Shown here: piece after piece, positions 118-11,636 of the stretch
Layout of the letters: each line of letters opens with the position of its first letter
How positions within the stretch are numbered: position 1 is the first letter of the stretch
DNA from: an uncultured Bacteroidaceae bacterium
Lineage (GTDB): Bacteria; Bacteroidota; Bacteroidia; Bacteroidales; Bacteroidaceae
DNA: 64,000 bases
Reading direction: 5' to 3'
NCBI GenBank assembly: GCA_905233285.1
Contig: CAJODY010000001.1
Coordinates: forward strand, 1 to 64,000
Program-made: the position numbers and the translations under genes
Notes under the pieces: model-generated
Database searches by the model: none
What the model saw: only the letters and a program-made list of their open reading frames with translations
Told to the model about the DNA's origin: nothing

Positions 118-1170
118 TTAAATCAGCGCCATTCCCAGTTTCTTGCACTCCTGACGCATATCGTCCGGCCAAATTGAGGCCTGAATCTCGCCTATATGTC
201 CCTTGTGCAACAGCACCATGCATAGTCGGCTCTGACCGATACCACCACCAATGCTCAACGGCAGTTCGTCGTTTAGCAGCTTCTGGTGGAAATAGAGCTG
301 TTCGCGTTCTTCCTTGCCTTCAAGCTTCAACTGACGCAACAGCGACGTCTTGTCCACACGGATACCCATTGACGACAGTTCAAACGAACGTCCCAGTACG
401 GGATACCAAATCAGGATGTCGCCGTTCAGACCTTCCAGACCATTCTCACCCATCGTCGACCAGTCGTCGTAGTCAGGAGCACGGCCGTCGTGCTTCTCGC
501 CGTTCGACAATTTGCCACCAATACCGATGATGAATACGGCACCATAAGCCTCACAGATAGCATCCTCACGCTCCTTCGGAGTCTTGTCGGGATACATCTT
601 CAGCAGTTCCTCGGCATGTATGAAATGAATCTTCTCGGGCAAGAAGGGCTTAATCTGGGTGTAAGTCTCACAGGTCAGATACTCCGTACGACGGATAGCG
701 GCATAGATACGCTCCACCACATTCTTCAGATAGGCCACTGTGCGCTGCTCCTTCGTAATCACAGCCTCCCAGTCCCACTGATCCACGTACAACGAATGCA
801 GGTTGTCCAGTTCCTCGTCAGCGCGAATGGCGTTCATATCGGTATAGATGCCGTAACCCGGCTCTATCTTGTACTCAGCCAACGACAATCGCTTCCACTT
901 CGCCAGGGAGTGAACCACCTCGGCCTTCGCATCGCCCAAGTCCTTGATGGGAAACGACACAGCGCGTTCCACACCGTTCAAATCGTCGTTGATACCCAGT
1001 CCCTTCAATACAAACAAGGGAGCCGTCACACGCCGCAGGCGCAATTCCGTGGAGATATTCTGTTGGAAAAACTCTTTAATCAGTTTAATACCCTGCTCCG
1101 TTTGTTTCATGTCGAGCAGGGATACGTAATCGATGGGTTTTATCAGTTGACTCATAACCTTTGTTTTCAT
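118..1170 (-). CDS. asnA: Aspartate--ammonia ligase (asparagine synthetase A)
   Basis: 350-aa ORF with AsnA-like sequence throughout (LRRVTAPLFV, DMNAIRADE, GGGIGQSRLCMVLLHKGHIGEIQASIW). Confidence 0.95.
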   Translation of the reverse strand: MKTKVMSQLIKPIDYVSLLDMKQTEQGIKLIKEFFQQNISTELRLRRVTAPLFVLKGLGINDDLNGVERAVSFPIKDLGDAKAEVVHSLAKWKRLSLAEYKIEPGYGIYTDMNAIRADEELDNLHSLYVDQWDWEAVITKEQRTVAYLKNVVERIYAAIRRTEYLTCETYTQIKPFLPEKIHFIHAEELLKMYPDKTPKEREDAICEAYGAVFIIGIGGKLSNGEKHDGRAPDYDDWSTMGENGLEGLNGDILIWYPVLGRSFELSSMGIRVDKTSLLRQLKLEGKEEREQLYFHQKLLNDELPLSIGGGIGQSRLCMVLLHKGHIGEIQASIWPDDMRQECKKLGMALI

Positions 1171-1492: not shown

Positions 1493-2353
1493 ATGAATAC
1501 CATATTTATTGTATTACCGATACTGACGCTGCTCATGTTCGACCTCGGACTAGCCTTGCGCCCCAAGGATTTTCGCCTTATCGTGGAACAGCCTAAGGCA
1601 GTGTTGGCCGGACTGACGGGACAAATCCTCCTGTTGCCCTTGATAGCCTGGGGAGTAGCAAGCGGATTCCAGTTGGAACCGCTGTTCTTTCTGGGTCTGA
1701 TGCTTATTGCTTGCAGCCCAGGCGGCAGCTCCAGTAATGTGTTTTCCATGTTGGCAGGCGGCAACGTGGCTCTATCAGTATCGCTCACAGCTCTGAGCAG
1801 TGTCATCACGCTGTTTACGGGACCGTTCATCATGGATATCATGACCCGTCAGGTCGGCTCGGCCATGAACGTCCACCTGCCCGTAGGCAACCTGCTCATG
1901 CAGAATCTGGTACTCATGGCCGTCCCCATAGCCATCGGCCTATGGATTGCCGTGCGCAACGAACAGTTGGCCGAGCGCATGCACGCCGTACTGAAGAAAC
2001 TGGCATTCCCGTTACTACTCGTGCTCATAACGGTGTTCTACATACAAAACCGCGAAATCATCATGCACGAATTCCCAGCTTTGGGACTCTGCGTCACCGT
2101 TCTCATCCTTTTGTCCATGCTGGGCGGTGTCATCCTGTCGTGGCTCATGCGACTGACGGGACGCGACCAGCGCACCATCATCATTGAAATAGGCATGCAG
2201 AACGCTGCACAGGCCATCACCGTGGCCAGCAGCCCATTTGTGTTCAACAACGACGTCATGGCCATTCCCGCCATCATTTATTCGCTGATGATGAATGTCG
2301 TTTTGTTGACTTACGTAGGCATCATAAAGCGACAAACTGTCAGTTATAACTGA
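1493..2353 (+). CDS. Bile acid:sodium symporter (BASS) family transporter
   Basis: Multi-TM protein with ACSPGGSSSNVFSMLAGGNVALS. Start moved from 1427 (inside the tRNA) to ATG 1493. Confidence 0.85.
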   Translation: MNTIFIVLPILTLLMFDLGLALRPKDFRLIVEQPKAVLAGLTGQILLLPLIAWGVASGFQLEPLFFLGLMLIACSPGGSSSNVFSMLAGGNVALSVSLTALSSVITLFTGPFIMDIMTRQVGSAMNVHLPVGNLLMQNLVLMAVPIAIGLWIAVRNEQLAERMHAVLKKLAFPLLLVLITVFYIQNREIIMHEFPALGLCVTVLILLSMLGGVILSWLMRLTGRDQRTIIIEIGMQNAAQAITVASSPFVFNNDVMAIPAIIYSLMMNVVLLTYVGIIKRQTVSYN

Positions 2354-8354: not shown

Positions 8355-9341
8355 TCATTTCTTTTTATCCTCCATGAAACGACGCTTCTTTGCACTCATG
8401 GGGTGGGCCTCTTTGGCGGCTTTGGCAGCAGCACGAGCTGCATTCTCCGCTTTACGGATCTTCGCCGCTGCCTGACTGGCACGCCGCTTGCGATTTCTGG
8501 CTTGTGCTATCTTCTTGCGCTTGGCCTTCTTTTCTTCACGAATGGCTTTTTTCTCAGCGTCGTGAGCCTCTATCTCTGCCTTACGTTTAGCAATCTTCTC
8601 CTCTTCACGGGCCAGGACACGGGCCTGATAGTCAGGATTCGACAACATCTCCTTGCGGAAAGGTGTAGCAAGCATGTTCAGTGCCAGTTTTGTCACTTTT
8701 GTCCTTGCGTAGCGCCAGCTTTTGCTCTCAGCCTCGCAGAGCACAGCACCATCCGAGAGCACTGCTTTGGCACGATTCAAGCCTTCGTCTGTCACTTCCA
8801 TCTCTAACGACAAACGTCTGCCATCCGTCCTGCGCACCATTGCATCGGCCTGCGCCAACAGATTGGCATTGCGCTTCTTGTGCAAGAACAGGTGTTCGCT
8901 CTCTTCGTTGAGGATGTACTTGGCGATAAACCACTTACGGATATCCTCGTCGAGGGTGGTCACGTAACCGAACACGGCATAGACAAAAATATGCTTGTGC
9001 GTCTTGATGTCGAACTTCTCGCCAGCACGGACGAACGTCTTCAGTTTCAGTTCATCGAACATCCGCTCCAAACGTTCGTTGCGGAACAGATTCCCCAACA
9101 CGTGCTGTAGCCTCGTACCCTCACCCGTGAAATAGCGGTAAAGCACCTGCGCCACCATACCCTTAAACACAAACATACCTGCAAAGACATAGCGGCTATT
9201 GCCTTTTCCTTCCTTCTCATAGAAAGAACTATGCGTCAGTACCTCGCGTAATTTGGTACGAGAGAAAAGCTTGCGAAGATCGTTGTATAACGGATCTTCC
9301 CAATCCTTAAAGTTGTCCTTCGGACGTGGTTGCTGTTCCAT
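8355..9341 (-). CDS. RNase III-fold protein lacking catalytic residues, possible divergent dsRBD, Lys/Arg/Ala-rich C-terminal tail
   Basis: LREVLTHSSFYE...NSRYVFAGMFVFKGMVAQVLYRYF...RLQHVLGNLFRNERLERMFDELKL aligns by eye with RNase III. Start placed at ATG 9341 because the longer ORF runs through a tRNA. Confidence 0.65.
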   Translation of the reverse strand: MEQQPRPKDNFKDWEDPLYNDLRKLFSRTKLREVLTHSSFYEKEGKGNSRYVFAGMFVFKGMVAQVLYRYFTGEGTRLQHVLGNLFRNERLERMFDELKLKTFVRAGEKFDIKTHKHIFVYAVFGYVTTLDEDIRKWFIAKYILNEESEHLFLHKKRNANLLAQADAMVRRTDGRRLSLEMEVTDEGLNRAKAVLSDGAVLCEAESKSWRYARTKVTKLALNMLATPFRKEMLSNPDYQARVLAREEEKIAKRKAEIEAHDAEKKAIREEKKAKRKKIAQARNRKRRASQAAAKIRKAENAARAAAKAAKEAHPMSAKKRRFMEDKKK

Positions 9342-9343
9342 AG

Positions 9344-9436
9344 AGCGGGTGACGGGAATCGAACCCGCGCCTGCGCACTGGAGGTACGCCGAATCAAGAT
9401 CTGAAGTCTTGCGTGCTGCCATTACACTACACCCGC
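9344..9436 (-). tRNA. Atypical 93-nt tRNA, anticodon UCA (UGA-reading), tRNA-Gly-like with long extra arm
   Basis: GCGGGTG/CACCCGC acceptor (7 bp), GTGT-AATGGCA-GCAC D arm, CAAGA-CTTCAGA-TCTTG anticodon arm, 26-nt variable region with GCGTA-CCTCCAG-TGCGC hairpin, GCGGG-TTCGATT-CCCGT T arm, discriminator U. Confidence 0.85.
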
Positions 9437-9454
9437 AGCCATCTTTACTGTTTG

Positions 9455-9462
9455 CAAAGGTA
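9455..9462 (-). promoter_or_regulatory. Promoter for the UCA tRNA: TACCTTTG, -33 TTTG at 9483-9486
   Basis: TTTG-N20-TACCTTTG on the minus strand; tRNA 5' end 18 nt downstream. Confidence 0.75.
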
Positions 9463-9533
9463 CACAAAATAAAAGAAATCCGCAAACAATTGCGAATATA
9501 AATCTGTGCTATCTGTGGTCCTGAAGAAATAAT

Positions 9534-11150
9534 CTACTTGGTTACATTCTTTCTGCCATTGCTGATGACAATGCCTTTGTAACCCTTGCCAATACGCAGG
9601 CCTCCTAAGTTTATCTGCTCGGTGGCGGAACTGTTGGCATCAAGGACCCTGATGCCCGTATCCTCCTTGGACACGGTGATGTTGAAGTCCTGCGAGAGGC
9701 TGAGGCCATTCCACTGGTCATCTACAGCGATGATGTGACCTGTTATGGTATCGCCCTGCTTGTAGCCGAACTTGCGAAGAAGATTACCGTTGAGCCTCCA
9801 TTCAAGGGTGAAGGGGTTCTGGGCAAGGATGGCCTCTTTGTTCTCGTCGCTGAACGATATCCACTCACCGTTGATATTGACCTCGGCACCAGGGATGTCG
9901 AAGGCGAGACCATGATAATAACCCTTGCTTAATTCAGCGGTCTGGTTCAAGCTGATGTTGGTAGGCAACTCCTTTGGCATGAGGTACTTCAGGAAGAAGC
10001 CCGCAGGATTCATCAGAATGAGGGGTTGAGTTTCAGGCTGTCCATTATATGTATCGTTAGTGTCGTCATCTCCATTTAGGTCAAATCTGATATAATCTTT
10101 AAGCTCTGTAGAGTTTTTAATCATTTCAAGTAATTCATCTACATCTTTTACTTCTGCAAACATCTGGAAACATAAATCAGCTACTGCTACATTTGTATAG
10201 TTTACGTATGATGTTGGGTATTTGTCTGTTTCGGCAACTATCTTTCATGATATTTTATGTCTAGGAAATGTACGTCATGCAAAAAGCACATCATTATTGA
10301 AGCCAACAGGGAATCTGCTACTCTCATAAATTTCCTCTGTTTGATTGATATCGCCATCTGCATTTGTTCCAATAGTGATAATAAGATGTTTGTCAGCCCT
10401 TGGATCATTAATTCAGTTTGCGACTGAGGGAAGTCCATAAACACTGTGTTCGTCTTCAGCGACATCCTCATGATGAATTTTATTCTTCAAAGTCCAGTCC
10501 TCTAATGAAATATTAGAGCCTGCAACAAAAAATAAGAAATTTTTTGATTTGCATAAATCTTTAAGTGAATTCGTATTCCAGTACATATATGCTTCTTTGT
10601 CTACACTAGCGTATGATGAGCATCCAAAAATGTATATATTGTTTGGGTTTTCATTTACTTCCTTTTGCATAACTTCATCCATTCCTCAGTTCATTGCTAA
10701 GGGATTTACAACTTTGAAATTAGCATGTTCTATGAGTGTATTTAAAATGTCCCACTCATCATGAGCATGATTAGATGGATCATCTGCAAACTCTCCACCT
10801 AATTTCTCAAAGTTGTCGTATCCTTTAGGGTTCTCCAAGGTCATACCTGTATTGAGCCTATTCATTAATTGCTGATACTCTTCAGTACTATGATTACCTG
10901 CACCGTATTGCCACATCATGTCTCTGATTCTCGTGGCTTCGGCAACTCTGAGGTGTTCAATGTGGTCGTAGGCTTTTTTATCGCCAGCCTCTATCTGCCC
11001 AATAATAGGCAGGATTTCTACAGGTTTGATATTGTTTATCTTTATGGATTTGTAGTCCTGTGCATAGCTTGCAGGAATGACAACAGCCATTCACGCTATG
11101 AGGAAAAGTTTTAAGAATGTCTTCAATCAATAGTGATACTTTCAGGCCAT
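9534..11150 (-). CDS. Secreted protein gene with seven in-frame TGA codons and a TAG stop; candidate UGA-recoded gene or pseudogene
   Basis: ORFs 10686-11090, 10413-10682 and 9534-10163 are all in one frame. In-frame stops at 11142, 11127, 11091, 10686, 10413, 10275 and 10245 are all TGA; none is TAA or TAG. Signal-peptide-like LKTFLKLFLIA[TGA]MAVVIPASYAQ; C-terminal GYKGIVISNGRKNVTK. Confidence 0.6.
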
Positions 11151-11458
11151 ACCTTATTATATTTATAGGGACTTCTCCTGTCGCATATAGCGCTGGTTGT
11201 GAGGTTCAGGAGCCTGACCATTTGCGGAGCAACGTCTGTTTACCATGTGCCTATCATCGGACGGCAGCCGTGCTAACTTGCCTCCATATCCCTATGCAGC
11301 TTAATATAGCATACTTTCCATTCCCCGTCCTTGCACCATTGCTCCCGGCCGCTCCTCTTCCGCTTGCATGGGCTGTGAACGCCGATAAACGCTACCCCCA
11401 TGAGTGGCCTCCGCCATACGCTCGCGAACCGAATGAATCCAGTTATACATATTCGTTG

Positions 11459-11466
11459 CAAATATA
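11459..11466 (-). promoter_or_regulatory. Possible promoter (TATATTTG) about 300 nt upstream of the TGA-containing ORF
   Basis: CTTATATTTGCAACG on the minus strand. Confidence 0.4.
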
Positions 11467-11636
11467 AGCATTTATTTTGAAACTACAAAGAAAAAAGGAG
11501 AAATGTTTCAAGCTAGTACCTTCTACGGGGTTCACTTCATAGTTGATTGGAATGCTGGTGAAATGTAAATAAGACTTAAATTTAAAGAAATGGGGACAGA
11601 AAAGTTTGGTGTTGCAGATGTTTTTAACTACCATAA

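Follow-up and report, generated by a model that had tools for sequence, protein, structure and literature searches.

A dead RNase III, long-variable-arm tRNAs and UGA-rich neighbouring genes in Bacteroidales: a candidate second genetic code for a few messages

Introduction

Why should a tRNA with anticodon UCA, which would match the stop codon UGA, lie two nucleotides before the start codon of a gene for an RNase III-like protein? This arrangement occurs in the genome of an uncultured Bacteroidaceae bacterium (here G000; assembly GCA_905233285.1, contig CAJODY010000001.1, positions 1-64,000, the whole 64,000-nt stretch being called the window). Our analysis of this tRNA-protein module, its relatives and the genes beside it points to a probable answer: the module would belong to a portable cassette of tRNAs, a catalytically dead RNase III, a leader RNA and recoded cargo genes, providing a second genetic code for a few messages in a standard-code bacterium. 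A genetic code normally belongs to a whole genome, organelle or virus. The features concerned in the window are as follows.

9344..9436, minus strand: tRNA with anticodon UCA, proposed glycine tRNA reading UGA (ARAGORN, Rfam, covariation, co-occurrence with the protein)
8355..9341, minus strand: 328-aa catalytically dead RNase III homologue, with an RNase III fold, a dsRBD-like domain and a Lys/Arg-rich helical tail
9455..9486, minus strand: Bacteroidetes-type promoter of the tRNA-ORF (open reading frame) unit, TTTG - 20 nt - TACCTTTG (from sequence)
9534..11150, minus strand: cargo gene for a secreted 538-residue protein, with seven in-frame TGA, start ATG GCC TGA and stop TAG
11166..11475, minus strand: region of the conserved leader RNA that opens the cargo operon (core of the profile, 11399-11217)
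11459..11466, minus strand: TATATTTG, the -7 box before the leader RNA

Homologues of the protein were sought in one genome per species across 85,488 species, which gave 11 loci (L019-L029), and a scan of the order added two distant ones, L034 (45% identity) and L035 (35% identity), for a total of 14 loci including the window. The carriers are scattered across gut and rumen bacteria; L019 is from the cultured Prevotella sp. tf2-5, which has no metagenome label, and most others are metagenome assemblies.

Recoded genes beside the module

In the window, the three short ORFs that lie upstream of the tRNA proved to be one frame (11150-9534) broken by TGA only. Homologous frames stand beside the module at L020, L021, L023 (two), L026, L027 and L028 (two), with 7-33 TGA each, and another secreted protein family forms the cargo at L022 and L024, the latter with additional recoded genes for an M16-like peptidase, a GNAT acetyltransferase and a PHP-domain protein. 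In all, a leader, UGA-rich cargo or both lie beside the module in eleven carriers. Most recoded ORFs begin with ATG, one or two codons and then TGA, placing UGA at codon 3 or 4. Nine aligned cargo genes hold 165 TGA in 5108 codons, and the cargo frames are otherwise intact, with no TAA or TAG across thousands of codons. Between cargo copies codon position 3 is the most variable, a pattern that translation would produce; one pair, for instance, differs at 141 first, 105 second and 211 third codon positions.

Two further cargo observations were made along the way. The Prevotella sp. tf2-5 locus bears a leader and a UGA-containing cargo gene at about 4500-2213 of L019 (minus strand), and an extra ORF with three TGA, opening MAYIYMDESGDLGFD, lies inside the recoded operon of G835 (L130 8808-9461, plus strand).

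The meaning of UGA in these genes was assessed from the residues that relatives carry at the same positions. Over 171 UGA sites this residue-similarity test scored glycine at 255, with serine next at 30, and for seven of nine control codons the top-scoring residue was the known one (the exceptions were CGC, with Lys ahead of Arg, and AGG, with Gln ahead of Arg). The Pfam score of the GNAT gene was 49 bits with UGA as glycine and at most 41 bits for seven other residues tried, and that of the PHP gene was also highest with glycine. By these alignments and scores, UGA reads as glycine in the cargo genes. In the same test CGA gave tryptophan first; under a stricter site filter the scores were Trp 3.9, Tyr 3.0 and Arg -22, and in 20000 random draws of real Arg-codon sites Trp was never preferred to Arg. 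CGA in the cargo is thus probably an aromatic residue, best tryptophan and clearly not arginine, although less certain than UGA as glycine. The cargo contained no informative CGG sites.

Several results weigh against these assignments, or against their connection to the module. With at least three informative relatives per site, the lead of glycine shrank to 73.6 versus 36.4 for serine, and glycine led in 90% of bootstraps. The margin of glycine over alanine in the PHP gene was 1.4 bits, and reading its two CGA as Trp lowered the score by 3.5 bits. The case for CGA as Trp is based on 16-18 sites, with Tyr close. Beside the module, G000 and L021 have the UCA tRNA alone, but one CGA of L021 falls in a Trp column. 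Finally, L025, L029 and L035 yielded neither a leader nor a clear recoded cargo gene.

Other genes of the same genomes follow the standard code. The module protein gene reads CGA as Arg (score 123.6) and CGG as Arg, and it ends in TGA in the window, L019 and L025. Within 1.0 Mb of G000, 110 of 497 long ORFs (~22%) use UGA as their stop, and this stop-codon use ruled out a genome-wide reassignment of UGA. Set against the cargo readings, these results imply that, provided the cargo is translated, UGA and CGA would each mean one thing in some genes of a genome and another thing in others.

The module tRNAs

The UCA tRNA of the window was called by ARAGORN at 9343-9436 (minus strand, anticodon TCA) and matched Rfam RF00005 at 9344-9436 (62 bits). 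It is 93 nt long, with a 7-bp acceptor stem, a 4-bp D stem, a 5-bp anticodon stem with the loop CUUCAGA, a long variable arm, a 5-bp T stem and U73. Its acceptor letters, U73, G1-C72, C2-G71 and G3-C70, are the acceptor determinants of glycyl-tRNA synthetase (GlyRS). The UCG and CCG tRNAs found at other loci have G73 with R1-U72, which are the acceptor letters of tRNA-Trp. The acceptor letters therefore agree with the residues from the cargo alignments, the two having been obtained independently. Covariation was strong in both tRNA sets, variable arm included; the whole-structure signal of the UCA set was matched by 0/500 shuffles and supports 7/5 pairing. The D and anticodon arms of the UCA tRNA are nearest to Bacteroidales tRNA-Leu(UAG), its acceptor and T arm to tRNA-Gly, and the UCG body to tRNA-Gln.

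The ARAGORN label for the UCA tRNA was SeC, so that a selenocysteine system, with this molecule as tRNA-Sec, had to be considered. We dropped this identity and give such a system almost no credence: the architecture is 7/5 and not 8/5, the discriminator is U73, the UGA columns are glycine, and selA was below the cut-off in 14/14 carriers although the E. coli control was detected. The loop of the variable-arm hairpin always contains UCCA in the module tRNAs. A pairing of this loop with AUGGA at the start of the ORF was also dropped, as AUGGA is missing in 4/14 ORFs.

Layout and inheritance of the tRNA-protein unit

A sequence-only reading of this stretch had proposed that the tRNA serves as the leader of the protein's mRNA, and its description of the junction and promoter was accurate. 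Next to the discriminator T9344 come C9343 and T9342 and then ATG 9341-9339, and upstream of the tRNA lie TTTG at 9486-9483, a 20-nt spacer and the -7 element of the promoter at 9462-9455. Its claim that no separate promoter fits between tRNA and ATG also agrees with our data: no TAnnTTTG box occurs there in the window, and such -7 boxes lie within 40 nt before the first tRNA in 11/14 loci versus 0.25 expected (background 1.8% per 40 nt, binomial 2e-17).

All 13 other loci share the tRNA-then-protein layout, often with extra UCG or CCG tRNAs. The UCA tRNA lies upstream of the protein in 11/11 species-scan loci, nine of which add long-variable-arm UCG or CCG tRNAs, and L034 and L035 have both UCG and UCA tRNAs. 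In most loci the tRNA adjoining the ORF is the UCG or CCG one, with the UCA tRNA further upstream. Conservation of the tRNA-ORF spacing had been named beforehand as a check, and its outcome was divided: the layout is kept in all 14 loci, but the distance between the last tRNA and the ATG ranges from 2 to 97 nt among relatives and is 2 nt again in L019 only, so that the tight spacing can no longer be seen as the key device. L034 also contains a third, degenerate tRNA of the module kind with a damaged T arm, between its UCG and UCA tRNAs (416-507, plus strand).

The tRNA and protein are inherited together. Both occur in 2/45 genomes of the genus and neither in the other 43, and across Bacteroidales both occur in 3/394 genomes and neither in 391. 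In this order scan the UCA tRNAs of the three protein genomes scored 86-120 bits and all tRNAs of other genomes below 54, and the 14 carrier genomes held no further tRNAs of the module kind (module tRNAs at least 60 bits, all others below 50). A scan of the phylum returned weak protein matches only (E 5e-4 to 2e-5), with no tRNA nearby. By its anatomy, the set of tRNAs and protein gene is one transcription unit, and it is to this extent, together with the shared inheritance, that the proposed coupling of tRNA and protein expression is upheld.

Loss of the cassette is suggested in G039, a genome without the protein, by a 41-nt remnant (88%) of the UCA tRNA's 5' half (L006 1501-1541, minus strand). 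In L022 and L029 the module ORF is immediately followed by one and the same gene, which looks ArgRS-like by eye. The protein, tRNA pattern and leader had no match in viral contigs, phages or plasmids, and a phage or plasmid origin was dropped on these grounds; PADLOC identified no known defence gene. Literature searches, which left most subscription papers uncovered, found no published description of the cassette.

A catalytically dead RNase III

Pfam Ribonucleas_3_3 matched 13/13 members scanned and DSRM_2 matched six, and the distant members matched TIGR02191 along almost the full extent of that family model (30 and 27 bits, under the family cut-off). A first structure model from 11 sequences was poor at the N-terminus, and adding the two distant members gave a usable model (mean pLDDT 77). 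Its best fold matches were RNase III and mitoribosome large-subunit chains, which we take to be mL44; the top Foldseek match was Thermotoga maritima RNase III (1o0w, E 1.4e-6), an RNase III fold followed by a dsRBD. The catalytic acids are gone in every member: NERLEFLGD has become NSRYVFAGM, NGRLVFEGM or NSRFVFLGM, and in the second catalytic cluster the E of FEAL is replaced by Y. The protein first described as RNase III-like is accordingly a homologue of that enzyme but most likely not an active RNase. With a separate canonical RNase III (rnc) above the cut-off in 13/14 carriers, the lost catalytic acids make the module protein most likely an RNA-binding protein. Its suggested connection to UGA-containing mRNA fits the neighbouring gene with seven in-frame UGA.

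The canonical RNase III of these Bacteroidales (L114-L117) reads GGNAFEAL, with N in place of the usual catalytic D. Two module genes are irregular. At L035 (~1620-1660, minus strand) the ORF opens out of frame with its remainder, which could be reached only by a -1 shift at the slippery heptamer A AAA AAG; this may be a programmed frameshift or an assembly error. The ORF of L027 is broken near 1550 (plus strand) by an apparent one-base indel in a C run, reflecting either a pseudogene or an assembly error.

A conserved leader RNA

A conserved RNA of ~200-300 nt opens every Prevotellaceae-type cargo operon for which enough upstream sequence is available. RNAalifold gave a structure of 49 pairs, 23 of them changed on both sides, which was matched by 0/500 shuffles and stood far above slid controls; Rfam contains no such family. 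A profile search recovered nine Prevotellaceae-type loci, and in distant L034/L131 (carrier G106) a weaker but clear match (E 6e-13) has the module gene on one side and a UGA-containing gene on the other. Within the 1.0 Mb of G000 examined, the leader and a full-length cargo gene occur at the module locus only.

Proposed explanation and alternatives

In our favoured explanation one promoter, as the sequence shows, drives one to three long-variable-arm tRNAs (UCA, with UCG and/or CCG) and the dead RNase III; with tRNA and protein on one transcript, both would be made together. The UCA tRNA would be charged with glycine and read UGA, and the UCG and CCG tRNAs would be charged with tryptophan and read CGA and CGG. 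The dead RNase III may bind the tRNAs, the leader RNA or both, and deliver the tRNAs to those ribosomes that are translating messages with the leader. Restriction of the second code to cargo messages would most obviously fall to leader and protein, since delivery only to leader-bearing messages would confine the alternative reading there. The early UGA of most cargo genes would keep the cargo silent unless the cassette is active. On a fuller version of this model, about which we are evenly divided, two codes would operate at once, with UGA as Gly and CGA/CGG as Trp on leader messages through tRNAs delivered by the dead RNase III, and the standard code on all others; here the UCCA loop of the variable arm may be a decoy anticodon (UCC for GlyRS, CCA for tryptophanyl-tRNA synthetase) or a handle for the protein.

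The same genes could also be read by ambiguous decoding throughout the genome, with suppressor-type tRNAs competing with release factor and tRNA-Arg on all messages, the cargo tolerating this and the leader and protein regulating expression or RNA stability. The normal 7/5 body and canonical loops of the tRNAs contain nothing that would bar them from any ribosome. However, a gene with 33 UGA requires near-complete reading at each of them, about 22% of long ORFs still terminate in UGA, and the module gene itself uses CGA for Arg; we consider this explanation unlikely. Our doubts are greater still about cargo that is foreign or decaying, that is, unexpressed pseudogenes from an organism with UGA as Gly (e.g., Absconditabacteria or their phages), carried along or mis-assembled. 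The cargo code does appear to be that of Absconditabacteria, and in G106 the cargo is rich in AT and has UGA at positions of the signal peptide. Against this origin, several independent genomes have the cargo on the same contigs as Bacteroidales genes; it also has TAnnTTTG boxes in front of it, retains intact frames with differences highest at codon position 3, and is tied in its occurrence to the tRNA module.

It might alternatively be the tRNA-protein unit alone that is functional, with the dead RNase III holding the tRNAs in a ribonucleoprotein or a toxin-antitoxin-like element and the cargo being incidental. Its patchy distribution, the strict co-inheritance of tRNA and protein, and three loci without visible cargo would all be consistent with such an element, to which we nevertheless assign very little probability, given the leader or UGA-rich cargo beside the module in eleven carriers and the match between the meaning of UGA and the tRNA acceptor determinants.

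If the second-code cassette is real, one codon would have two meanings in one cell, chosen by the message, which would be a new kind of translational control. Code change would become testable as a stepwise, transferable trait, and the cassette would be an orthogonal translation system of natural origin that adds three codon meanings.

Comparison with known systems

The closest match in codon meaning is the code of the Absconditabacteria (SR1), in which UGA is Gly (UCA tRNA) and CGA/CGG are Trp (UCG and CCG tRNAs) throughout the genome (PMC8629427). UGA as Gly with a UCA tRNA is common to Absconditabacteria, Gracilibacteria and the cassette, and the Absconditabacteria share the cassette's whole tRNA set and probably its code, less certainly for CGA and CGG than for UGA. 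This overlap raises the question of code transfer between phyla. Their code is genome-wide, whereas that of the cassette would apply to the cargo genes only, a few genes of a standard-code genome in which UGA is still a stop elsewhere, and the cassette differs from both groups in its long-variable-arm tRNAs, dead RNase III and leader RNA.

Selenocysteine insertion (selC, SelA, SelB, SECIS) resembles the cassette in outline, each having its own UCA tRNA and protein and an RNA element within the mRNA; the cassette differs in having no selA, glycine as the predicted inserted residue, dozens of sites per gene, a 5' leader element, a protein of another family and a sense codon that is recoded too. 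Allo-tRNAs are likewise unusual long-variable-arm bacterial tRNAs with odd anticodons, but they are defined by an 8/4 or 9/3 acceptor branch (PMC7609411), Sec-like extended stems in contrast to the normal 7/5 body of the cassette tRNAs. The module protein is like RNase III and mL44, itself a dead RNase III, in fold and domain order, and is set apart from them as a bacterial, tRNA-linked protein with a long basic tail. Phages can carry their own genetic code (PMC10746230), and in alternatively coded phages, as proposed for the cassette, a dedicated tRNA reads a stop codon in the element's own genes within a standard-code host; the cassette, by contrast, is chromosomal and matches nothing in viral, phage or plasmid collections.
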